A stretch of DNA of 33,295 nucleotides from a virus, in the IMG/VR virus record IMGVR_UViG_3300042507_003088, positions 1 through 33,295 of that record; one strand, given 5' to 3'. The notes beneath the pieces were generated by a model. That model searched no databases, had not been told where the DNA came from, and saw only the letters and a list, made by a program, of their open reading frames with translations. The position numbers and the translations under genes are program-made. Shown here piece by piece: positions 3,988 to 18,048 of this stretch (the stretch's first letter is position 1; each line of letters starts with the position of its first letter).

Positions 3988-5262
3988 ATGGCTTCATCAC
4001 TAAACCTTCAAAGAAACTCTGAAGTTTACATGTCTACCGTCGACCTAGCCGGTGGAGATGAGGGCGCAGATATGACCCCTCGCAATACTTGGAGAGTAGA
4101 AGTACTCGCCGGTTATGCAGCAAGTCAATCAGCGGCTACTCAAGATATTACATCACTAGAAAGTGGTCTAAGTCCTGACCGTGGTACACAAAGATTCAAC
4201 ACTGCAATTAATCCAACTGAATGGAGTTTCCAAACTTATCTACGCCCAACAGGCGTATTAAATACTTCTGGATCTACTAATGCAGATCCTACAGGAAACT
4301 CACAACCATTAGCTGACTGGTTCTTATGGCAAGCACTACTATCTAATACTGCATATTCTGCAGGAGTAGGTGCTTCTTCTAAACTACAATCTGCATGGCA
4401 AACTGGTGGAAAGTTCGGACTAGCAGCTCGTGCAGCTTCTGGAAACGCTGCAGCACATACTTCTAATATGGCTCGTGCTACTGAATACAACATGTACGTT
4501 AAAATGGACAACGTAGTATATCAAGTTAAAAATGCTACTGTTAATGAAGCTTCTATTGATGCGGCTATTGACTCTATTGCTATGACTAGTTGGAGCGGTT
4601 TTGGTACTGACTTTATTGAATTAACTAGTGCTGCACGTGATGAAATCATTTCTGTTGTTGGTGGAGTTCTTAACAATGGTACTTCTATTAGCGGAAACTC
4701 ACACTCAGATGCAAACACTGCGGCTCACGGTTATCACGCTTACGCTAGATATAACGTTGCAGGTACTACTACAACTAGCGCATTCATTCAAAATCGTCTA
4801 AGCTCTATCGAAGTAACTCATGAACCAGAAGGCGGTTCAGAATCTACTTACACATTCCCAGTTACTGGTTTAGGATTCACCTATTCTAACGCACTAACTT
4901 ATCTAACTCCAGAAGAACTAGCGGCTCTAAACTCTCCTATCAGTCAGTTTACAGGTTCTAGAACTATTACAGGTAACTTCACTGCTTACCTACGTTCTGG
5001 AACAGATGAAAGTGCTCAGTTCCTACGCAATATCTCTAACGATAGTAGAACCAGTATTGCACAAGCAAGCTCTGCTAACCTAAAGATTGGTGGTGCTACT
5101 GCTCCATTCGTTGCAACATACATGCCTGCTACCCAGTTCAACTTCCCAACACACACTGTTGAAGATATCATTGGTATTTCTGTAGAATTCTTAGCTCAAG
5201 AACCTACTGCTAGCCGTGGTACTGGTAGCGAACTAACATTGATTGTTTCTGCAGCATCTTAA
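3988..5262 (+). CDS. Major tail tube protein
   Basis: A 424-residue protein that should polymerise as stacked rings around the tape measure. It is rich in small and beta-forming residues (ASSLNLQRNSEVYMSTVDL at the start, ISVEFLAQEPTASRGTGSE near the end) and sits between tail terminator and tail chaperones, the standard place for the tube gene. It is longer than lambda gpV (about 246 residues), so extra surface domains are likely. A consensus AAGGAG lies 8 nt before the ATG. Codon use differs from the neighbours: more AAC, TAC and CGT/CGC and less AAT and AGA, as expected for the most abundant tail protein. Confidence 0.85.
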   Translation: MASSLNLQRNSEVYMSTVDLAGGDEGADMTPRNTWRVEVLAGYAASQSAATQDITSLESGLSPDRGTQRFNTAINPTEWSFQTYLRPTGVLNTSGSTNADPTGNSQPLADWFLWQALLSNTAYSAGVGASSKLQSAWQTGGKFGLAARAASGNAAAHTSNMARATEYNMYVKMDNVVYQVKNATVNEASIDAAIDSIAMTSWSGFGTDFIELTSAARDEIISVVGGVLNNGTSISGNSHSDANTAAHGYHAYARYNVAGTTTTSAFIQNRLSSIEVTHEPEGGSESTYTFPVTGLGFTYSNALTYLTPEELAALNSPISQFTGSRTITGNFTAYLRSGTDESAQFLRNISNDSRTSIAQASSANLKIGGATAPFVATYMPATQFNFPTHTVEDIIGISVEFLAQEPTASRGTGSELTLIVSAAS

Positions 5263-5270
5263 TAACAAAA

Positions 5271-5385
5271 TAAATTACGCTTGAGGGGGCGTGATTTATA
5301 AAAAATGCAGTTGGGTAGCTACCTCAGCAAGCTATTAGATCTCCCCTCACTAATAGTAAGTTGGATATGGTAGCTACCCTTTTTT
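5271..5385 (+). ncRNA. Structured intergenic RNA: two hairpins with complementary loops
   Basis: The 145 nt between the tube gene and the chaperone gene hold no supported protein gene but a dense fold. Hairpin 1 has a 10-bp stem (5271-5280 with 5289-5298, one G-U pair) and loop TTGAGGGG (5281-5288). Hairpin 2 has a 7-bp stem CTATTAG/CTAATAG (5332-5338 with 5350-5356) and loop ATCTCCCCTCA (5339-5349). TGAGGGG at 5282-5288 is exactly complementary to CCCCTCA at 5343-5349, so the loops could kiss. Hairpin 2 is enclosed by an 11-bp stem (5313-5323 with 5369-5379) followed by six T's. I recognise no named RNA family. It could stabilise the tube mRNA 3' end, terminate transcription or be released as a small RNA; these are inferences. 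Confidence 0.6.
5313..5385 (+). terminator. Terminator-like stem with T-tract after tail tube gene
   Basis: GGGTAGCTACC (5313-5323) pairs perfectly with GGTAGCTACCC (5369-5379), followed at once by TTTTTT (5380-5385). The 45-nt interior carries a second hairpin rather than a short loop, so it is not a textbook terminator. It would reduce read-through from the heavily expressed tube gene into the chaperone and tape measure genes. Confidence 0.55.
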
Positions 5386-5407
5386 ATAATAGAAATGAGA
5401 GGAAAAA

Positions 5408-5839
5408 ATGAGTTTAATTAAAAATCTTATGGTAACAGAAAAGGTTACCGAAGTAGAGTTCCCAGATATTGAAGGATTTGTAGTTCACGTTAACTATGTA
5501 GGACGTGACAAAATGATGAAAATCCGTAATAGCGCTCTAGTGTACAAATTTAATAAGCGTACTCGTCAACGTGAAGAAGAAGTAGATAATGATAAGTTTC
5601 TAGAAGCTTATACTGAAGCTACTATCAAAGGCTGGAAAGGCTTAACTGTAAAAGGCTTAAGTCAACTAATTCCAGTAGACACTTCAAAAATGAATCCTAG
5701 TCAAGAAATTCCATACACACCTGAAGACGCACTTGATCTAGTTAAAAGCTCTACTATCTTTGATCAATTTATCACTGATACGCTAAATGACTTTGATAAC
5801 TTTGAACAAACAAGAAAAGAAACTGACGAAAAAAACTAA
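5408..5839 (+). CDS. Tail assembly chaperone, short form (lambda G-like)
   Basis: A 143-residue cytoplasmic assembly protein that would coat the tape measure during tail building; it is not expected in the virion. It begins MSLIKNLMVTEK, has a beta-rich first part and an acidic helical end. AGAGGA lies upstream of the ATG. Position (after tube, before tape measure) and the frameshift signal at its last codons are the strongest evidence. Ribosomes that do not shift stop at the TAA at 5837-5839; those that slip at 5830-5836 continue into the next frame and make a 266-residue GT-like fusion. Confidence 0.85.
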   Translation: MSLIKNLMVTEKVTEVEFPDIEGFVVHVNYVGRDKMMKIRNSALVYKFNKRTRQREEEVDNDKFLEAYTEATIKGWKGLTVKGLSQLIPVDTSKMNPSQEIPYTPEDALDLVKSSTIFDQFITDTLNDFDNFEQTRKETDEKN

Positions 5840-5875
5840 AAGACTTCCTCCGCAACCAACTTAATGGCGGAGGAA
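5830..5875 (+). promoter_or_regulatory. Programmed -1 ribosomal frameshift signal
   Basis: The slippery heptamer A AAA AAC lies at 5830-5836 in the correct frame (GAA AAA AAC, then TAA). After an 8-nt spacer comes a perfect 9-bp stem, TTCCTCCGC (5845-5853) with GCGGAGGAA (5867-5875), and a 13-nt loop. After a -1 slip the frame is open through CTA AAA GAC and runs without a stop into the ORF ending at 6207. This is the layout used by lambda-type phages to set the ratio of G to GT. A possible pseudoknot (loop CCAAC 5856-5860 with GTTGG 5915-5919) is only a suggestion. Confidence 0.92.
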
Positions 5876-6210: not shown

Positions 6211-9200
6211 TTGGCTACAATTAAGAATATAATTCAGACTCAATTTACTAGTACCGGAGCCGGTGGAGTAAACAAGCAAGTAGAAACTTTAAATAAAGGA
6301 CAAACCCGCCTAGCACAGAGTAGTGCTAGCGCGGGTCGTTCTTTTGCAGCTCAATCACAGGGATTAGGTGGTTTAGTAGCAGCCTATGCAGGCGCTGCTG
6401 CAACTACTTTTGCTTTACAACAAGCATTCTCTAAATTAGCTGGTGCTGCTCGTGCGGAACAAACTCTTGAAGGTCTTAAAAGTCTTGCTACTGCTAGTGG
6501 TGAGTCTAGTTCTATATTACTTAAAAATGTTCGTGAAATTACTAAAAATCAGCTTACATTGGCTGAAGCAGCTCAACAAATTAACCTTAGCTTAAGTGCT
6601 GGATTTGATCAAAAGCAAATTGAAGGACTAGCTAGCGTAGCCTTAAAAGCTTCTCGTGCTTTAGGTCGTGACTTAACAGATGCCTATACTCGTGTTATTC
6701 GTGGTTCTGCTAAACTAGAAACCGAACTTTTAGACGAACTTGGTATTTATACTAAGATTGGACCGTCTACTCGCGCTTATGCTGCTGCACTAAACAGATC
6801 AGCTGAATCCTTAACCGAATTTGAACGTCGCCAGGCTTTTGTTAACAGCGTTATAACAGAAGGCAATAAAAAGTTTGCTGCTATTAATACTACAATACCT
6901 ACTACTGCAGAAAAATTTGGAGCGTTTGGTACTAAAGTATTAGACTTAGCTACTAGTTTTGGTATATTACTAGCAAATAGTTTAGCTCCTTTAGCAGACT
7001 TTTTAACTAATAATTTTGCAGGTAGCTTAGCACTTGTAGCAGGTCTTTTAGCCTTAGTAGCTAAAACAGGATTAACACAATTAAGTGTAGGTATTAAGGC
7101 TTTTGAGAAACAAATAGTATCACTTAGTACTACAACTACTGCTTGGGTAACTAAAAATATTGGCGGATTTAAAGCTTATGGAGCAGCTGCACAGCAAGCT
7201 ATTCAAACCGTTAATACTCAGCTAAAAGGTTTAAGCAGAGCTGAGCAAGCTCAATTAGCTACCTTACGAGATACTTCTAAACAGCGAGCGCTAACTAGTG
7301 CCGAGCTTAAAACTGCTAATTTAATTTTAACTGAGCGTACAGCTGGGTTAAAGAAGCTAATAGCTACTCAAAATACCGAACTAGCTAATTTAGATAAGCA
7401 AATAGCTGGGCAGAAAAAAGGAAGCGCGGCCGCTAATGCCTTAACAACTAGTATAGCTGGATTAACCGCTAGGCTTGCTGCGAATAATGCGTTATTAAAA
7501 GCAACAGAAGCACAAACTATAGCTACTGCAGCTGCACAAGGTACTCTAGGAGCTAAATTAGGTACTGTAGCCTCAGGAGTTATAAATGGGTTAGGTATGG
7601 TAGCTTCTACTGCCTTAAGAGCAGGATCTGCTGTTATAGGATTTGCTACTGGAGCTTTGGGGGTAATAGCTGTTCTTTCTCTATTAGGCAGTACTATAGC
7701 GGGTCTTCTAGGTAAGCAAGAAGCATATAACCAACTGTTACAAAATGCAGGATTAGCTATCAAAGCATTTTTTACTGATGAAACAGCTGATAATATTAAA
7801 TCAGCTTTTACTTCTGTAGCTGCAGATGTTTTAGCAGATATGGAAAAAGTAGATAATAAACTAAGAGACTTAGAATCTTTTAAGATAAAAGATAAAATAT
7901 TTGGAGTTACTGTTGAGCTAGAAAAAACTAAAGAAGACTTAGTAAAAGGAGTAGGAGCAGCGGTTTCTGAAGCCAGTAGAGAAGGTGCTTCAGCAGGTGA
8001 AAGTTGGGGTGCTGCTATTTTAGGTAGTATAGGTGCAGTTTTAGGTGCGGGTCTAGGTTTATTATTAGGACCTTTAGGAGTTCCTGCAGGTTACGCTCTT
8101 GGTACGGCTATAGGCGCAGCTGCTGGAGTAGCTTTAGGTGTAGCTCTAGATCCTGCTACAAAGGAAGTAGCAGAACTTGCCGAAAGTAGATATGAAGAAT
8201 TAGGAAGAATGCTGGGTGACAAAGATATATTTAATTCTGCGGAATCTAATGAACTTTTAAGAAAAACTGTAGCGGTATTAGATGAACAATACGGTGCAAC
8301 TGCTAGATTATCTTTAGAAGGCCGTAAAATGTTTTCTACTATGTTAGAAATGGCTATTGCAACAACTAGTGTTTCTAATAATATGGAAATATTAGATGGA
8401 GTAGCTAAAAAAACTGGTATTTCTATAGTAGAATTAAAAGATAAATTTAATGATATAACTTTACCTTCAGGGGATGTAGAGCTTACTCCTAAACTAAATC
8501 TACCTGAGCAGTCTTTACCTTTAGTAATAAATATACAAAATGAAGAAGGTTTACTTGCTAGAATAGAAAAAATTAGGGAAGAGATTAGTAAAGTAACTAG
8601 AGTAGGTGCTAGAGGGGGAGTGCTTATAGAATTTGCAGTACCGCCCGAAGCCTTACCAACTCTGCAAGATATGACAGATAAGCTATTAGGTTTAGCTGAA
8701 TCTACAATAACTGTTAATAGTGATCTAGTGTTAGCTACTAATGTTATAGACAACTTTGCATCTGCAATAGATAACGGATCTCTAAACTTAGAAAGATTTT
8801 CTGAGAATGAATCTGCCATAACAAAAACTCTAATTAGAGCCTCAGTAGAATTAGGATCTGCTAAAACTAAATTAGACGAACTTAACGCTTCTAGAGCAGA
8901 AGCTCTTAGGTTAGGGGCTACTGAAAGTAATTTAGCAAGCATAGATGCTGAAATAGCTCGTCAACAAGCTTTAGTAAATGCCGGAGAAGATAGTGTTCAA
9001 GCAGCTAGACAAAGATTAAATATTCTTAGAGACATAGGCGCCCCATTAAAAGAGCAGCTAGAGCTAGAAACTAGAATTGCAGAACTATATGATGCAGAGC
9101 TAAAAACTAAGTTAAACTTATTAGCAGTAGACAAGGAAACTGGATCTATAGCAAAAACTTCTCAAGAAGAACAACTTTTTAGAGCACAAGAATTAGTGGG

Positions 9201-12200
9201 GCAAGCTAGAGCAGCATCAGCAGCCAGCAAAGAACGAGCTAGTTTTGAAGCTCAAGTAAGCAGAGCACTAGGAGCTGCAGGAAAATCTAATTTAGATTTA
9301 CAAACAGAAATTTTTGGATTAGTAGGAGAAGAGGGTCAAGCTAGATTAGCACAAATTGCTGCTGCTGAAGGATTGTCCGATACTTTAGGCTCTATAAAAA
9401 CCTTAACTTCCGAAACAGCACAAAGTGCGGATAGTTATCAGAATTTACTAAAAGTAGCTAAAGTTAATGCAGTTGAATTACTTAAAACTATATTTGCTAG
9501 TAACGTAGAATTAGCCAAACAAATAAAAGACGTAAATCAGCAACTTAATGATGCCGTAGCTGAAGACAGAATAGTAAAAATAAAACTAGAAGTAGAGTCT
9601 ATGAATTTAGACTACGAACTCGTTCAAGCTAATATAGATGCTCAAATTTCTGCGTTAGAATCTCAAGTTAGTATAGTAGAAGCATTAGCTAATTTAGATA
9701 ACTTTGCTACTGTAGACTCTATAGTTGCAGAAGTTAACGCGGCTTTAACTAATCTTAGCGTTAAAGTAGAAATACCAAAAGAATTACAAAATTTAAGTGC
9801 TGTTGAAGCAGCTAAAACTGTTACGGAAAAACAACTTCAAATATTAAACTTACAAATTGAAGCAGAAAAAGAACGCTATCAAAATGAAATATATAATATA
9901 GTAGCACAAAAATCTATACTATACGATCAAAAGAAGTTAGAAGATGCTAAAAGAGAAGCTGAAAAAGCTAATAGAATGGCCGAACTTGACTTACAGCGTA
10001 ATCAAATACAATCTTTAGCCGATTTATATATGCAAGCACTACAAAGCGAAAAAGACTTAAATCAATCTTTTGTTACCTCTTTAGCAGCTACCTTCACTGC
10101 AGGTGCCAATCAGCTAGCTGGTGTAATTGGTGCAGCCCCAGTAGCAGCGTTTGTTCCTCCACCAGTGGGGGCTAATATGGATATTGGTTCTAACTTTGCT
10201 GCAGTAAAACAAAGTTCTGATGAACTTTTTACTAGTTTAGAATCAGATCTTACTAGTTACTATAATACTCTGGACCAACTTGCTCAGCAAAACTACGAAA
10301 TGCAAAATAGTAATCTTACTAAACAACAAGAGATAGCTGAAGCAGGTCATAAAGCTAACGTTGAAGGTATTAAAGCTGGAGCTGTTGAAGCTGCTATTGC
10401 AGGTCGTCAGGCGTTAAAGGAACTTGCAGAAGCAGGTTCTAAAGAAGCGGCTGACCGTTTAAAAGCATTAGATGAGATGCAAAAGATTTTAAATGAAACT
10501 GGCGAAAAAGTAAAAGAGCTAGCAAAGCAGTTAGCAGAGCAAGTAATTGCAGCACTTCAAGAAGCGGTAACTGGCGTTATGCAGAAAAAGATCGATCTTC
10601 TAATAGCTCAAGAAGCTATGATTTCAGACACTCTTAGCTATGTAGCTAGTAGAACTGAAGAAGCTAGCACTAAGTTACAAGCAAGCTTAGAAAAAGAAAA
10701 TTCTCTTAGAGAAGAAGTTGCTTCTAAAACAGAAGCACTTAATCAGTCATATGTAGATTTTGTTACTTCTTTAGGGGAAGCAAACGGTAAAGTAAAAGAA
10801 TCTGGAAAAGAATATGTAGCTAAGCTTCTAGAGCAAAAACGCTCTATCATGGAACTTTATAAGACTGGTACTGCTCGTATTGCTCAAGAGGGTGTAGTTA
10901 AAACTCTTGAAGAAATGAAAATAGATTTAGAAAAGCGCTTAGAAGAAGTAACTTCTAAACGTATCAAAGCAGAAGAAAAGTTACAGAAAATACAAGAAGC
11001 ATTTGGACTACTAACTGACATGCTTAGTGGTAAGTTTATGCAAATGGCTAATACTGTTATGCAACTTTCTCAAGCTATATCAGCATTTAATGCTATGTCT
11101 GGCATGGGTGGCGGCATGGGTATGACTTTTCAACCTATTATAAATCAATTTGCGGACTCAGTTTCTCAATTTAATAAAGCCGCTCAAACTGCGGGAGCCG
11201 GCCTAACAGGAGCTGCTGGTGCTGGCGCAGGCGGTGCAGCTGCAGCAGGAGTAGGTGCAGCAACTTCTTTAATGCCTAAACTAGTAACTGGTATGAATTT
11301 ACTAAGTAGTGCTTTAAGCGGTTTTAGCATTGGTTCTATAGTAGGTCAACTAACTGGCGATACCGGTATGGGAAGTTCTATAGGCGGCTTAGTTGGTGGC
11401 ATTGCTGTTGCAATTCCAGCAGTAACTTCTGCTATAACTACAGGCATAACTGCAGCTCTAGGTTCAAGTGCAATAGGCTCTGCTCTTGGATCTGCGCTTT
11501 CTTTTGCTATTCCAGTTATTGGGCCTGTTTTTGGAGCACTACTAGGTGGATTATTTAGTAAAAAGCCTAAAGGTCAAGCGCAAGGCACTTTAACTTCAGA
11601 AGGTTTCACTACTACGAGCATGTCTGGAAGAAAAGTAGATCCTAAAGCTCTTGCTAGCATTGCAGACGTAGCCCTAACCAACGTTGTTGGATCTTTAGAA
11701 GCCGCTGGAATATCATTTACCGACACAGTTAACACTTCTATCAGCTTCTACAAAAAAGGAATCAACGGAGCTACTTTAGAGTTTGCTAACGGATTCAAAG
11801 CATCATTTAAGGGCGGATCGGCAGAAGCAGCTGGCAAATTCTTTGTAGATTCATTCTTTCAAGGATTAAGAGCTGGCAGCCTAAACGTAGACGAGGCATT
11901 ACCAGCAGCTGGCAGAATTCAATCAGCTATAGACAACTTTGTAGCTTTAAGTGACGTTTCTGAAAAAACTAGTGAGCGTTTTTCAAAGGCTATAGACTTT
12001 GCTTCTAAGTTTGATGAAGCTTTAGTATCTCTTAGTGGAACAGGTTCTACTATAACTCAAGTGTTTAGTGTTATTGAAAAAGCAGCCGTAGCTAATGCAG
12101 CTAATGTAAATAGATACTATCAAGAGTTCTTAGCTGATACTAAAGAAACTTTTGGAGCTTCTAGTTCTGAGTATAGAGAAGCATATGCAGCGGCTGTAGA

Positions 12201-15200
12201 TAATGCTTTAGGTCAAATAGGCTTAGCTAAAGACTTAGGTGGCAATATCATAACAGCCGCAGAAGCTATGAACGATTTAAATGCTGGTTCTATAATGGTC
12301 AAAGAAACTATTGCAGGAATTCAAGCATTTAGTAGTGTGCTAGAAGGTCTAGAAGTTCCTGATGTAGATTCTGTAATAACTCAAGCTATTAATGCCAAGC
12401 TTAGTGCTTTAGTTACTGATGTTGGCGATTCTCTAACTGAAAGTATTGAACTATTAAGAGATCCAGCTTCTGCAGCAGCTTTTCAGCTTAGAGATATTAT
12501 GCAATCTGGTGCTGATAGAGTAACAGAACTCACTGGAGTTTACGATCAACTTAGAACAGAAATAGCTGGAGGAGCTAGCATTGATGCAAGTATTGTTAGT
12601 GATGCTGCAGCCAACATTGCTAAAGCTACCGAACTAGCTGCTCTTCAAGTTGATGCTTATATAAACAGCCTAGATAAATCAGGGCTACGTGCTATTATAT
12701 CTAACCAAGCTTGGGGTGATGCAGCTGCTATGGCTGCTGCTGAAACTCGTTTAGCTATTGTATTAGAATACGAACGTGTTCAAGCTATTGAAAAGTTTGT
12801 AGACGTAAGTAAAAACTTTAAAAAGCGTTTAGCAGAAATTACTGGTCAAGTACAAAAAGTATCTGAGACTCCTATATCTTATACGGCTACAACCTCAGTT
12901 ATGAAAGCTTTTGAACAAGAAGTAAGCACTACCTTAACTAATAGCTTCACTAGCTTGTTAAACTCTATAGGTCGTGGCGCTAACATTACTGGAAACTTTG
13001 AAACAGCTATAGCCGAGCTTAATGCTGGACTAGCTTCTGGAGAGTTAGATAGTTTAGCTTATGCTAACGGTCTTGAAATGTTAAGTGATGTTACTGCTAG
13101 CGTATTAGAAGAAATTAATGCAATGGTAGAAGAAGCAGAATCTTTAGTTTCTCAAATAGCTCAAAGTTTTGATACTTCAAAAGATACTGTTATATCTGCT
13201 ATTCAAGAGCTAGGTAATCAGCTTGTAACTTTAACTCAAAATATTACCGATAAAACTTCTGAAATTTTAGGTATTTATGATGATACTCTAAGTTCAGTAG
13301 CCGAGTCTGGTAACGAACTATTTGATTTACGTGATACAGCTAAAGAAGCATTTTCAACTGCTGCAAAAGCTGTTGCAGAGTTCGAAAAGAGTAATAAGCT
13401 AAGCGGTAAGTCTTCTGCTGTGTTACGTGGTGAAATTCTAAATGTACAATCTCAGTTAAGCAACCTACTAGCTGCAGGAAATCTAGATTTTAGTGGATTT
13501 GCTCAATTTACAGAGCTTAGTGCTCGTCAAGGAGCACTAAAGCGTGAATTAAATGCTGTAGTAGCTGTTGAAAGTGAATATCAAGATTTACTAGATAAGC
13601 GTGGAACAACTCAAGAAGATTTAATATTTATTGAAGCTACTATTGCATCTCTTAATGAAGATTTAATTGATACTAGAATAAAAGAATCTGAGTTAATCGT
13701 AAAAGCTAAAGACGCTACTGTAAAATTTGTAAACTCACAAGAAGATTTAAAAGATATTACTGAGCTACTAGCAGCTTCTAATTTTAACTTAAATCAAGTT
13801 AGAGTTAATGAAGAGTCTGCTGTAAATAGAATGAGAACAGCTCTACAAGAGTTTACAACAGACACAGCTTCTCTAACTGAGCTATTAGACGGACTTGGCG
13901 GGGCTTCTGGTGCTGCACTAAGAGAATCTTTTATACAGGCTGCTACTGGTAATGCTGAAATTATGTTTGCTAATCTAGGCGATATAGCTAGAAGTGCTGA
14001 AATAAATGCAGCCGTAGCACAAGCTACTACAGCTTTTGATAGTTTAGAACAACTAGTTACTGAAGTTAGTTCTTATTTTAATCCAGTTGCTACAGAGTTT
14101 GAAGCTGTAAGTACTAGCACTGTTGAGTTAACAGACAGATTTGCAGCTTTTAACGAAGATCTAGTTAGATACTTAGACCAAGAAGGTTTAGCTAAGTTTT
14201 ATGGAGACGGCGGAGTATTCTCCAGCTTTAGAGATTCACTGCTAACTACTCTAAAAACTGATGGATTTGATATATTAACTGCTTCTGGTGGGCCCTTAGA
14301 AAGCTTTAATCTAAACTTAAATACTATTGGACAAGCAATGGCTACACTTACAGCTTCTGGTAACTTCCTAGATGTAAGTATTCAAACAGTTGAAACTTCT
14401 TTTGGTAACTTAGTAACAGCAATGGGTACTGATATGGCTGGCTTATCAGCTGCTTATGTAGGCTTATCTGTATTCAGTGCTTCTGCACAGCAAGTAGGCG
14501 ATATTGATTTAACTGCAATGGTAGATAATCTTGGAGAAATTAAATTAGCTTTAGACGGCTTAGGTAACTTAAGACTTAGTGTTGACGCTTTTGACTCTCT
14601 AAGCTCTATATATACTTCTATTACAGTTGTAGATTCGCTATTAAATAGTATTTCTTTTGATGTATCAGCTGGAAATGCTACAACAGCTATTTCTACTGCA
14701 GTTAGCGTAATTGATAGTACTCTTAATGCTATAACTTTAGGTCCTGTTACTGACGCTACTGTAGATAAAATTGAAGTAGCCTTTACCGCTATAAACTCTA
14801 CACTAGGTAGTGTAGATTTAGTAACTGTTACTGATTCTACTGTAGATAAAATTGATGTAACATTTTCAGCAATCAATAGCGCTCTATCTAACGTAAACCT
14901 AGTTACAACAAGAGACAGCAGTGTAGATCAAATTAACGCTGTTAATACAAATATAAACTCTTCTTTAAATGGTGTTAACTTTGTTACTAATAGAGACAGT
15001 AGCGTAAACCAAATTAATCTTGTAAATAACAATATTAATTCTTCTTTAAATGGCGTTAACTTTGTTGCTAACAGAGATAGCAGTGTAGATCAAATTAACG
15101 CTGTTAATACAAATATAAACTCTTCACTAAGCGGAGTTAACTTTGTTGCTAATAGAGATAGTAGTGTAGCGCAGATTAACGCGGTTAATACTAATATTAA

Positions 15201-18048
15201 TTCTGCACTTACTGGCGTAAACTTTATTGATAGTGCTAATAGTGCTGTAAATCAAATAAGCTTAGTAAATAATAACTTAAACTCTATTTTAGAATCTATA
15301 AACTTTGTTGTAAACAGTGATAGCGTAATAGGGCAAATTAGTGTTCTAAGCACTAACATAAATTCTGCCTTGAATAACGTTAACTTTGTTACATCTAGAG
15401 ATAGCAGTGTTGCCCAAATTAATACAGTTAATACTAACGTAAACTCTGCTTTAAGCGGAGTGAACTTTGTTACTAACAGAAATAGTAGTGTTGCTCAAAT
15501 TAACTCAGTTACTACTAGCTTAAACTCAGCACTAAACGGAGTTAACTTTGTTGTGACCACTAACTCTGTAGTAGATAAGATTACAGCTTATAACGTTGCA
15601 GTTAACTCTGCACTATCTAACGTTGATTTAGTATCTAATACTGATTCTCTGGTTAACAGAATTGGCACAGTTAGTGTATTAGTAAATACTGCACTTTCAA
15701 ATGTAGACTTTGAAGATACTACTGCTGACGTAGTGCAAATGATTACTGAGTACAATACTGATATAAATAAAGTATTAGGTTCTTTAGAGTTGTCTGTTGC
15801 TACTGAAACTCTAGTAGACTCGCTAAGCACTTTAAAAGATCTGGAAGGAGCAGTTAACTCTATAGATTTTTCTACGTCTATTGAAGATGTTACTGCTTCT
15901 TTAACTTCTGTTAACTCTGTTGTTAATCAGTATCTAGATGCTATAGATGTAACAGCCCGTTTAAAAGAAGCTACAGATCAAATAGGTTTAGTAAATACTA
16001 ATATAAATCTTAGACTAGATGAAGTAGATTTTACTACGCGCTTAAGAGAAGCTACAGATCAAGTAAGTGCATTAAATACTAATATTAATACTAAATTAGG
16101 TACTGTAGCTTTTGCAACAAACCTAACTACAGTTACTAATGCTATAGGTTCTGTAGCAACTTCTATTAACACAGCATTAAGCAACTCTACTATAAGCTCT
16201 ATGCAAAATACTTTTACTGCATTAGTTAATGTGTTTAACACTGATGCTAAAAATGGGGTTGATGCCTTTAAAGCTTCTATCGACAAATTTGTAAATTTAA
16301 CTACACAAATTAATTCTGTGGCAGGGCTTGCACAAGAGATAAATGATCTAAGTGCTTCTAATGGTGATATTTCTAGATTAATTACTAGATTTAATGAGTT
16401 ACAAACTCAGATAACTGCATTAACTGGTACTACGGGTATAGCGTCAGTTAAGGCTCAGTTAGCTACTATAGCTACGGATTTAGGTGCAGCATGGAACAAC
16501 ATAAATCTGCAAGTAAGTCAGTTACCTACTAAAATTACTGTAGCTAATACTGTTAATACTACAGTACAAGGTGGTTTTTCTAATACCGATAGTACTAACC
16601 TAGCAAAATTAACTAATACATTTCCAGCTATACAAGGGGCAACATATAAAAAAGCAACCTATGCTAAGGGGGGTTACGTTGGGGGCCCTGGAACTGGTAC
16701 TAGTGATTCTATCCCTGCTCGTCTTTCTAATGGTGAGTACGTAATAAAAGCGCAGGCAGTTAAAACCATTGGTAAGGATGCTTTAGATTACCTAAATGCT
16801 ACCGGGGATGTTCAGTCATATATAGCTGGTATGGGTAGACGTGGCGATACCGAGCTTGCTCATATTACCAGATACGAAAAAGAACTATTATCTAGCATAA
16901 GAAATGGTATAAAAACTACTAATCCAGATACTAATATTCAAGAGTTCTTCCCTCTTTGGAGCGGTGCTGTTGGCAAAATGTTTGCTAAGCAAGAAAAAGA
17001 TCTACTAGCGAAAACATATCTTTCTAAAATATTAGCGCGTAATGAAAACATATACAATTATAATTATAAAAAGCAGCAAAACGCAAGACCAGAAAAACGA
17101 ACACTAGAGGCAAGCTCTACTGGTACACCGTGGACAAATCCTAAATTTAGTAATCTAGCACTCGACGGTAAAAGTCAGGGCACAGGTAACTATGTAGATC
17201 GAGTAGCGGAAAATGGTCTATTTACTCCTACCTACACTAACGACCAAATCACTTCTCAGAGGGCCGTTTTTAATATGTTAAATGAAATGCTTGTTGCCAG
17301 AAAACCTGGAACAGCCCTAACTAAACTTGATTGGGTATATGCACCTAATAAAGCAGATGGAACACATAAATGGGGAAATTTTGGATTTAATAAATCTACT
17401 TCTAATACAAGTGAAGCCCAAACAGGTTGGGGTCCTTTTAAATTTAAGAGAAATCCATTTGATGATACTGATACCTATGGTCCATTTGGTCCTTCTCCTA
17501 CTAATACTGATGGCGGTGGATGGATGCATAAATCTGGCGTAGCACTTACACAGCATATGAAAGATCAATTTGGAAAAAATATTAGTACTGGTTTGAATCC
17601 TCTAAATAGATCTTATATGGATCAAGCTATTGATGCCGCTAACGAAGACTACGGTAACTTTGGCGATCTATACATGTTAAGCAACACAGGAAAAGGCAGA
17701 CCTACTGCAGCTAACTTAGCTAGCGGTGGTTTAATAGATAGCTCTTATAAACAATTCAAAGGGCTAAGAGACTCCGTCTCTGCCATGTTAGAGCCAGGTG
17801 AGTTTGTACTTCGCAAACCTATCGTAGATAAGCTTGGCGTAGACACTCTTAACAAAGTTAATGCTGGTAGTGGTGATTTTGGTGGTGATGTAAGTGTAGA
17901 AGTTAATATTAACAACAATGGAACTCCGGCTAACGTAACTGCAACTCCAGAAATCAGACGTGAAAACGGAAAGATTATTGTAGATGTTATACTAGAAGAT
18001 ATTAGAACAAATGGACCTATCCGTCAACAAATTAGGAGCTTAAGATAA
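6211..18048 (+). CDS. Tail tape measure protein, very long (3945 residues)
   Basis: This protein sets tail length and is ejected with the DNA; here it takes over a third of the window. The start is a TTG 3 nt after the chaperone stop with only a weak Shine-Dalgarno; no ATG follows for hundreds of codons. Residues 1-260 resemble the alanine-rich helical start of other tape measures. Hydrophobic stretches lie at about 465-500, 600-650 and 1690-1780. Long charged helices fill about 880-1000 and 1230-1640, and a tandem 27-residue repeat runs from about 2765 to 3330. Near the end, GGYVGGPGTGTSDSIPARLS with NGEYVI (from about 3486) is a widespread tape measure motif. A second, diverged copy with MLEPGEFVLRKP lies near 3837-3871, with about 300 unrecognised residues between. 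Confidence 0.93.
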   Translation: MATIKNIIQTQFTSTGAGGVNKQVETLNKGQTRLAQSSASAGRSFAAQSQGLGGLVAAYAGAAATTFALQQAFSKLAGAARAEQTLEGLKSLATASGESSSILLKNVREITKNQLTLAEAAQQINLSLSAGFDQKQIEGLASVALKASRALGRDLTDAYTRVIRGSAKLETELLDELGIYTKIGPSTRAYAAALNRSAESLTEFERRQAFVNSVITEGNKKFAAINTTIPTTAEKFGAFGTKVLDLATSFGILLANSLAPLADFLTNNFAGSLALVAGLLALVAKTGLTQLSVGIKAFEKQIVSLSTTTTAWVTKNIGGFKAYGAAAQQAIQTVNTQLKGLSRAEQAQLATLRDTSKQRALTSAELKTANLILTERTAGLKKLIATQNTELANLDKQIAGQKKGSAAANALTTSIAGLTARLAANNALLKATEAQTIATAAAQGTLGAKLGTVASGVINGLGMVASTALRAGSAVIGFATGALGVIAVLSLLGSTIAGLLGKQEAYNQLLQNAGLAIKAFFTDETADNIKSAFTSVAADVLADMEKVDNKLRDLESFKIKDKIFGVTVELEKTKEDLVKGVGAAVSEASREGASAGESWGAAILGSIGAVLGAGLGLLLGPLGVPAGYALGTAIGAAAGVALGVALDPATKEVAELAESRYEELGRMLGDKDIFNSAESNELLRKTVAVLDEQYGATARLSLEGRKMFSTMLEMAIATTSVSNNMEILDGVAKKTGISIVELKDKFNDITLPSGDVELTPKLNLPEQSLPLVINIQNEEGLLARIEKIREEISKVTRVGARGGVLIEFAVPPEALPTLQDMTDKLLGLAESTITVNSDLVLATNVIDNFASAIDNGSLNLERFSENESAITKTLIRASVELGSAKTKLDELNASRAEALRLGATESNLASIDAEIARQQALVNAGEDSVQAARQRLNILRDIGAPLKEQLELETRIAELYDAELKTKLNLLAVDKETGSIAKTSQEEQLFRAQELVGQARAASAASKERASFEAQVSRALGAAGKSNLDLQTEIFGLVGEEGQARLAQIAAAEGLSDTLGSIKTLTSETAQSADSYQNLLKVAKVNAVELLKTIFASNVELAKQIKDVNQQLNDAVAEDRIVKIKLEVESMNLDYELVQANIDAQISALESQVSIVEALANLDNFATVDSIVAEVNAALTNLSVKVEIPKELQNLSAVEAAKTVTEKQLQILNLQIEAEKERYQNEIYNIVAQKSILYDQKKLEDAKREAEKANRMAELDLQRNQIQSLADLYMQALQSEKDLNQSFVTSLAATFTAGANQLAGVIGAAPVAAFVPPPVGANMDIGSNFAAVKQSSDELFTSLESDLTSYYNTLDQLAQQNYEMQNSNLTKQQEIAEAGHKANVEGIKAGAVEAAIAGRQALKELAEAGSKEAADRLKALDEMQKILNETGEKVKELAKQLAEQVIAALQEAVTGVMQKKIDLLIAQEAMISDTLSYVASRTEEASTKLQASLEKENSLREEVASKTEALNQSYVDFVTSLGEANGKVKESGKEYVAKLLEQKRSIMELYKTGTARIAQEGVVKTLEEMKIDLEKRLEEVTSKRIKAEEKLQKIQEAFGLLTDMLSGKFMQMANTVMQLSQAISAFNAMSGMGGGMGMTFQPIINQFADSVSQFNKAAQTAGAGLTGAAGAGAGGAAAAGVGAATSLMPKLVTGMNLLSSALSGFSIGSIVGQLTGDTGMGSSIGGLVGGIAVAIPAVTSAITTGITAALGSSAIGSALGSALSFAIPVIGPVFGALLGGLFSKKPKGQAQGTLTSEGFTTTSMSGRKVDPKALASIADVALTNVVGSLEAAGISFTDTVNTSISFYKKGINGATLEFANGFKASFKGGSAEAAGKFFVDSFFQGLRAGSLNVDEALPAAGRIQSAIDNFVALSDVSEKTSERFSKAIDFASKFDEALVSLSGTGSTITQVFSVIEKAAVANAANVNRYYQEFLADTKETFGASSSEYREAYAAAVDNALGQIGLAKDLGGNIITAAEAMNDLNAGSIMVKETIAGIQAFSSVLEGLEVPDVDSVITQAINAKLSALVTDVGDSLTESIELLRDPASAAAFQLRDIMQSGADRVTELTGVYDQLRTEIAGGASIDASIVSDAAANIAKATELAALQVDAYINSLDKSGLRAIISNQAWGDAAAMAAAETRLAIVLEYERVQAIEKFVDVSKNFKKRLAEITGQVQKVSETPISYTATTSVMKAFEQEVSTTLTNSFTSLLNSIGRGANITGNFETAIAELNAGLASGELDSLAYANGLEMLSDVTASVLEEINAMVEEAESLVSQIAQSFDTSKDTVISAIQELGNQLVTLTQNITDKTSEILGIYDDTLSSVAESGNELFDLRDTAKEAFSTAAKAVAEFEKSNKLSGKSSAVLRGEILNVQSQLSNLLAAGNLDFSGFAQFTELSARQGALKRELNAVVAVESEYQDLLDKRGTTQEDLIFIEATIASLNEDLIDTRIKESELIVKAKDATVKFVNSQEDLKDITELLAASNFNLNQVRVNEESAVNRMRTALQEFTTDTASLTELLDGLGGASGAALRESFIQAATGNAEIMFANLGDIARSAEINAAVAQATTAFDSLEQLVTEVSSYFNPVATEFEAVSTSTVELTDRFAAFNEDLVRYLDQEGLAKFYGDGGVFSSFRDSLLTTLKTDGFDILTASGGPLESFNLNLNTIGQAMATLTASGNFLDVSIQTVETSFGNLVTAMGTDMAGLSAAYVGLSVFSASAQQVGDIDLTAMVDNLGEIKLALDGLGNLRLSVDAFDSLSSIYTSITVVDSLLNSISFDVSAGNATTAISTAVSVIDSTLNAITLGPVTDATVDKIEVAFTAINSTLGSVDLVTVTDSTVDKIDVTFSAINSALSNVNLVTTRDSSVDQINAVNTNINSSLNGVNFVTNRDSSVNQINLVNNNINSSLNGVNFVANRDSSVDQINAVNTNINSSLSGVNFVANRDSSVAQINAVNTNINSALTGVNFIDSANSAVNQISLVNNNLNSILESINFVVNSDSVIGQISVLSTNINSALNNVNFVTSRDSSVAQINTVNTNVNSALSGVNFVTNRNSSVAQINSVTTSLNSALNGVNFVVTTNSVVDKITAYNVAVNSALSNVDLVSNTDSLVNRIGTVSVLVNTALSNVDFEDTTADVVQMITEYNTDINKVLGSLELSVATETLVDSLSTLKDLEGAVNSIDFSTSIEDVTASLTSVNSVVNQYLDAIDVTARLKEATDQIGLVNTNINLRLDEVDFTTRLREATDQVSALNTNINTKLGTVAFATNLTTVTNAIGSVATSINTALSNSTISSMQNTFTALVNVFNTDAKNGVDAFKASIDKFVNLTTQINSVAGLAQEINDLSASNGDISRLITRFNELQTQITALTGTTGIASVKAQLATIATDLGAAWNNINLQVSQLPTKITVANTVNTTVQGGFSNTDSTNLAKLTNTFPAIQGATYKKATYAKGGYVGGPGTGTSDSIPARLSNGEYVIKAQAVKTIGKDALDYLNATGDVQSYIAGMGRRGDTELAHITRYEKELLSSIRNGIKTTNPDTNIQEFFPLWSGAVGKMFAKQEKDLLAKTYLSKILARNENIYNYNYKKQQNARPEKRTLEASSTGTPWTNPKFSNLALDGKSQGTGNYVDRVAENGLFTPTYTNDQITSQRAVFNMLNEMLVARKPGTALTKLDWVYAPNKADGTHKWGNFGFNKSTSNTSEAQTGWGPFKFKRNPFDDTDTYGPFGPSPTNTDGGGWMHKSGVALTQHMKDQFGKNISTGLNPLNRSYMDQAIDAANEDYGNFGDLYMLSNTGKGRPTAANLASGGLIDSSYKQFKGLRDSVSAMLEPGEFVLRKPIVDKLGVDTLNKVNAGSGDFGGDVSVEVNINNNGTPANVTATPEIRRENGKIIVDVILEDIRTNGPIRQQIRSLR
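14506..16200 (+). repeat. Tandem 81-nt (27-residue) repeats inside tape measure gene
   Basis: About 20 consecutive units of 27 codons. The consensus is close to RDSSVxQINxVNTNINSxL followed by xGVNFVxN. The best-conserved copies start at 14911, 14992, 15073 and 15154, exactly 81 nt apart; flanking copies are more diverged and at least one single-codon slip occurs near the end. Hydrophobic residues fall every 3-4 positions (V, I, V, I, L, V), so each unit is probably amphipathic helix. Boundaries at both ends are approximate. Confidence 0.85.

Follow-up and report, generated by a model that had tools for sequence, protein, structure and literature searches.

A tailed phage requires many more copies of its tube subunit than of its assembly chaperone, and to our knowledge the setting of the tube/chaperone ratio at the junction of the two genes is poorly described. 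A 33-kb virus record from IMG/VR (the whole of this stretch of DNA is called the window below) raises the question of what happens at this junction, as the gap between its tail tube gene and its tail assembly chaperone gene appears to be filled by a folded RNA. A tail terminator gene precedes the tube gene. The closest relatives in culture belong to the T5 family (Demerecviridae), with tube and chaperone proteins that are ~27-35% identical, and DNA near-identical to the window was not found among cultured phages. The features of the locus are as follows.

3988 to 5262, plus strand: tail tube (major tail protein) gene, an ORF of 424 amino acids (PHROG 3575, E 5e-47)
5270 to 5299, plus strand: hairpin P1 (arms 5270-5280 and 5289-5299), which presents loop L1; predicted from the minimum free energy (MFE) fold, compensatory changes and cis/trans duplex energies
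5282 to 5288, plus strand: loop L1, UGAGGGG, with the core GAGGGG found in 49/49 relatives
5313 to 5379, plus strand: P2, an outer, terminator-like stem of 11 bp (arms 5313-5323 and 5369-5379), with compensatory changes at 11/11 pairs
5324 to 5364, plus strand: P2b, an inner helix of 5 bp (arms 5324-5328 and 5360-5364), predicted from the MFE fold, cis/trans energies and a double change in one clade
5331 to 5357, plus strand: hairpin P3, 8 bp (arms 5331-5338 and 5350-5357), predicted from folds and cis/trans energies
5343 to 5349, plus strand: loop L3, CCCCUCA, predicted from flank covariation to pair with L1, and potentially pairing with the chaperone Shine-Dalgarno (SD) sequence
5380 to 5385, plus strand: U-tract (T6) after P2, an intrinsic-terminator signature by its sequence and by T-run enrichment
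5396 to 5403, plus strand: chaperone SD, UGAGAGGA, with 7 of its 8 bases complementary to L3 plus the 5' neighbour of L3
5408 to 5839, plus strand: tail assembly chaperone gene, first frame, starting at the AUG at 5408 (PHROG 313, E 2e-13)

The isolated 135-nt RNA reached an MFE of -46.7 kcal/mol as compared to -26.3 +/- 3.5 kcal/mol for dinucleotide shuffles (z -5.8; 0/200), which, together with the compensatory changes found in relatives, bears out the statement in a preliminary description of the locus that the gap is more ordered than an ordinary spacer. That description had also reported that TGAGGGG (5282-5288) and CCCCTCA (5343-5349) are exact complements in the loops of two independent stems, the second of which is enclosed by an 11-bp stem followed by six T's. 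Both 7-mers do sit in hairpin loops of the MFE fold, the stems are independent, and the enclosing stem and T-run are P2 and the T6 at 5380-5385. The stem lengths of 10 bp and 7 bp given at that time need to be corrected to 11 bp for P1 with its loop open (13 bp counting extra G-U-type closing pairs) and 8 bp for P3, and two features were absent from the earlier account, namely helix P2b and the GAGGGG that the chaperone SD shares with L1 in most relatives.

The chance that random loops of 8 nt and 11 nt share a perfect 7-mer is ~0.0008, and the L1 7-mer or its complement has no further copy in the 33-kb window beyond these two sites. In the window, a fold in which both loops are kept open is less stable by 2.6 kcal/mol (-48.1 to -45.5 kcal/mol), and the 7-bp L1:L3 duplex is predicted at -11.9 kcal/mol, a figure that excludes any kissing penalty. 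As a separate observation, both P2 arms of the window clade (5314-5323 and 5369-5378) contain the perfect palindrome GGTAGCTACC, so that each arm could self-pair between molecules. This palindrome was also considered as a protein or DNA site and was rejected, as it is found in the window clade only and other relatives have different P2 sequences.

Relatives were gathered by their tube or chaperone protein, the tube-chaperone gap was excised and near-duplicates were removed, which left 49 gaps. In every one of them the 5' part contains GAGGGG and the 3' hairpin contains CCCCTC, with tube identity to the window as low as 52-54%, and in these non-redundant relatives the element is always located in the tube/chaperone gap and occurs once per contig. 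In the homologous gaps of related phages, where loss of both features would have refuted the preliminary description by its own terms, the stems and the loop complementarity are both kept. Unconstrained folds placed CCCCTC (L3) in a loop in 49/49 gaps and GAGGGG (L1) in 41/49, and some relatives (L098, L119 and L230) folded with a weak P1 or none.

When 2.9 million viral contigs were searched for the pattern L1-L3-SD, 38 matches were obtained, 36 of them at the tube/chaperone junction; the remaining two are unrelated and occur in sequences that have no tube or chaperone gene. A covariance model found one element per record in 13 virus records (23-117 kb) and in a SAR86 MAG; in some of these, the same site also matched weakly on the other strand. 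An extra match to the loop pattern in the SAR86 MAG was not a copy of the element, being unrelated according to the covariance model. In L285, one of the 49 relatives, the element and tube gene are located on a contig of 5 kb that was assigned to a SAR86 cluster MAG, which is a weak hint at a SAR86 host. The carriers form a large group of aquatic phages that have not been cultured and whose tail genes are distantly related to those of T5.

The covariance model did not find the element in the genomes of the Vibrio phages phi 3 and Thalassa, which have a minor tail gene between tube and chaperone. In more distant relatives (~30% identity; L051 and L052-L061) the tube/chaperone gap is present without the element; the L051 gap has a simple terminator and a sigma-70-like promoter and the L052-L061 gap has a sigma-70-like promoter, suggesting that transcription is controlled at the junction in these relatives too. 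The gene junction and the presumed purpose, which is to separate tube from chaperone expression, are thus the same as in the window, whereas a promoter takes the place of the pseudoknotted RNA.

Sequence comparison supports each of the predicted helices. Mean duplex energies across the 49 relatives were lower for arms of the same relative (cis) than for arms exchanged among relatives (trans) in P1 (-6.8 vs -1.8 kcal/mol), P2 (-20.4 vs -8.5 kcal/mol), P2b (-6.8 vs -4.6 kcal/mol) and P3 (-8.3 vs -3.0 kcal/mol). For every helix, the cis mean was reached by 0/2000 permutations in which arms were swapped among relatives, kinship being ignored; three P2 boundaries, including that of the window, were mis-set in this run, which is too few to explain the difference. 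Compensatory double changes were found at 11/11 pairs of P2 in an alignment of 46 sequences, at 8/11 pairs of P1 in the window clade (14 sequences with an unambiguous alignment) and once in P2b in the window clade. Across clades, P1 and P3 could not be aligned reliably by MAFFT, so RNAalifold recovered P2 alone, and the inner helices were tested by the cis/trans energies and the clade alignment instead. In the window-clade alignment with the pseudoknot included, 99% of cells were paired, as compared to 34-52% when the alignment was slid by 1-3 columns.

The same type of comparison supports the pairing between the loops. Contiguous Watson-Crick pairing of L1 with L3 averaged 8.55 in cis and 7.46 in trans (0/5000 permutations, kinship ignored), with 7-13 contiguous pairs in most relatives and 6 in four. 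Since the 6-bp core is invariant, it shows no covariation by itself; the flanks, by comparison, show more pairing in cis than after permutation at positions -1 (U-A and C-G), +6 (G-C, A-U and U-A) and +7 (U-A, A-U and C-G). Complementarity is therefore kept by covariation of the flanks, as expected of a kissing loop, and we classify the two loops as a predicted kissing-loop pair. Taking helices and loops together, we are close to certain that the structural observation is genuine. Moreover, the cores GAGGGG and CCCCUC are invariant while every stem varies, a pattern that points to a further partner; the simplest candidate would be the chaperone SD, with a protein as the alternative.

The chaperone SD is unusual. 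It contains GAGGGG in 30/46 relatives, as compared to 2/116 other genes on the same contigs (Fisher 9e-19, kinship ignored), and it reads GAGGGGAAA in most relatives. As this hexamer is the L1 core, and hence complementary to L3, the SD could also pair with L3, and control of chaperone translation becomes at least as likely as mere protection of the 3' end, one of the roles that the preliminary description had offered. Mean predicted duplexes were -17.3 kcal/mol for L1:L3, -12.2 kcal/mol for SD:L3 and -8.0 kcal/mol for the SD with the 16S rRNA tail. Covariation between SD and L3 did not go beyond permutation at flanking positions -1, +6, +7 and +8, and a signal at position -3 is isolated, with mostly unpaired positions between it and the core; the case for SD:L3 pairing thus comes from the core and the enrichment. 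Four of the 49 relatives (L251, L260, L268 and L208) are without a GAGG-type SD match and still have the loops. For a few relatives, among them L230, L077, L098 and L119, the SD begins just 6-8 nt after P2, so that pairing with L3 would need a sharp bend or an opening of P2. The internal loop between P2 and P2b, which in the window lies on the 3' side only (5365-5368) and across relatives usually has the larger 3' side, may allow such a bend for both pairings of L3.

Downstream of P2, a T-run of at least 4 was found in 40/49 relatives (82%) as compared to 9% of background windows, a result in support of a terminator-like role in most relatives, though not in all; the U-tract is weak in the other nine (for example L101, L108 and L035), and termination may therefore not be universal. 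P2 and the T6 have the stable, G+C-containing stem followed by a U-tract that is expected of an intrinsic terminator. The hairpin loop is not short, as P2 encloses ~45 nt that fold into P2b and P3, and a simple terminator scan of the window did not list P2. The condition-sensitive terminator that had been proposed initially is compatible with these data, and its terminator-like 3' side is what the T-run enrichment supports. A putative promoter inside the element (TATAAT, 5385-5390) was rejected because it is not retained in relatives, and a short ORF from 5305 was set aside because, by inspection, neither its start nor its frame is retained.

What would such an element do? The most likely reading, to which we give an even chance, is that the gap, from 5270 to 5407, represents a cis-acting pseudoknotted RNA that sets chaperone expression against that of the abundant tube protein. 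P2 and the U-tract would form a partial intrinsic terminator, which would also cap the tube mRNA, and L1 and L3 would pair into a kissing-loop pseudoknot across the terminator hairpin. We infer that termination is partial and that the kiss could gate termination, initiation at the chaperone gene or both, by way of competition for L3. In read-through transcripts, pairing of L3 with L1 would leave the chaperone SD free, whereas pairing of L3 with a GAGGGG-type SD would repress the chaperone, this being the presumed direction of the switch. The choice of partner might be biased by events at the tube stop codon, with the ribosome as a putative trigger; wherever measurable, this codon is located 8-25 nt before L1, so that a terminating ribosome would touch P1. 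More tentatively, and here we lean towards doubt, the element could be a three-way switch in which the anti-SD loop L3 is common to the chaperone SD and to an upstream SD mimic, L1, which a separate hairpin presents just 3' of the tube stop codon. If this were true, chaperone translation would be decided by traffic where the tube gene ends, and the need to keep a working SD would explain the unchanging loop cores amid changing stems.

The alternative that survives best, which we consider rather unlikely, is that the element acts only as a partial intrinsic terminator and 3'-end cap, with a kissing loop that merely stiffens or times the hairpin and a GAGGGG SD that is unrelated. This would agree with the very stable P2 and the enriched T-tract, and it has precedents: in ABC importers of Clostridia, internal intrinsic terminators that combine a long stem with a poor U-tract set operon stoichiometry (PMC9045158), and in E. 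coli, terminators are modulated by ribosomes near stop codons (PMC4824070). The terminators of Clostridia resemble the element in having a stable stem and a poor-to-good U-tract after a highly expressed first gene, and differ from it in that the element has, within the terminator hairpin, a loop predicted to pair with that of another hairpin, and that its loop sequences do not vary. Termination by itself, however, leaves unexplained both the invariant loop cores amid varying stems and the GAGGGG SD in 30/46 relatives, and fits poorly with the nine relatives in which the U-tract is poor.

Two further readings appear improbable. Under the first, the element is a processing site for RNase III or another enzyme, and cleavage separates and stabilises the tube mRNA. 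P2, the internal loop, P2b and P3 do form a long irregular hairpin with an interrupted helix of ~24 bp, similar in shape to the R sites of phage T7, which are long irregular hairpins with an asymmetric internal loop between genes. The T7 sites, however, are not known to have loop-loop pairing or to need sequence-invariant loops, and cleavage by RNase III would require neither P1 nor loops that are complementary and invariant, whereas conservation of the element is highest in these loops. Under the second reading, to which we attach equally little probability, the element is an autoregulatory operator in which a phage or host protein (e.g., the tube protein or the chaperone) reads GAGGGG in L1 and in the SD, and L1:L3 serves as a scaffold. 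One hexamer common to L1 and the SD in most relatives, along with an invariant core, would suit sequence-specific recognition; against this, no RNA-binding protein is implicated and the flank covariation indicates that pairing is kept, not sequence alone.

Release of the terminated 3' end as a trans-acting phage small RNA with the CCCCUC loop as its seed, which the preliminary description had suggested, is very improbable; a compact, terminator-like 3' UTR would be compatible with it, but L3 covaries with its partner in cis, the element was found nowhere outside the tube/chaperone gap in the contigs and records scanned, and nothing points to such an RNA. Chance folding of an ordinary spacer can be dismissed, as it is refuted by the z of -5.8, by compensatory changes throughout and by conservation in all relatives at close or moderate distance.

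Returning to a cis-acting regulator of chaperone expression, the nearest known system by function would be the pseudoknot switch of plasmid repZ and repA genes. In these systems, the loop of an upstream hairpin pairs with a downstream segment and alters access to the ribosome-binding site of the next gene, and control depends on translation of the upstream frame. The element would share with them an upstream loop that pairs with a downstream segment and the link to the next gene's ribosome-binding site proposed here, and the 8-25 nt between tube stop codon and L1 would be compatible with a similar dependence on upstream translation. Unlike in repZ and repA, no antisense RNA was seen, the gene upstream codes for a structural phage protein and the partner is in the loop of a terminator-like hairpin; homology was neither found nor expected. 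Among the titles cited in PMC10724649, pseudoknot systems are named for repZ of ColIb-P9 (IncI-alpha) and for repA of IncL/M and IncB.

Rfam 15 had no family match in the window at the gathering score and only far sub-threshold microRNA models at relaxed thresholds, in agreement with the initial impression that no named RNA has such a layout, and no description of such an element was found in the literature searched. We take the element to represent a genuine, undescribed RNA family, combining a predicted terminator and pseudoknot regulator, of an uncultured phage clade with T5-like tails. Its significance lies in a covariation-supported RNA, absent from Rfam, that is fixed at the tube/chaperone junction across a large clade of aquatic phages. 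The clean architecture, with swappable stems and fixed loops, lends itself to simple mutational tests, and the element may serve as a ratio-setting part for synthetic operons.

Other observations concern the neighbouring genes. Directly 5' of the chaperone stop codon (TAA, 5837-5839) is a slippery heptamer, A AAA AAC (5830-5836), and 3' of the stop codon are a CCTCCGC/GCGGAGG hairpin and then a second chaperone ORF at 5875; by sequence, this is the classical arrangement for the predicted -1 frameshift of tail assembly chaperones. A slippery-like heptamer is located close to the chaperone stop codon in 34/48 relatives. Tandem tube-like genes occur in L112, L113, L115, L117, L166 and L208, where the RNA element is found 3' of the second copy. 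Upstream, positions 978-2243 encode a head-tail connector or head-completion-like protein with an inserted Laminin_G_3 (concanavalin A-like) domain, and downstream, positions 6211-18048 hold a tape-measure-like ORF of 3945 amino acids with many near-repeats of the type NTNINSALSGVNFV.
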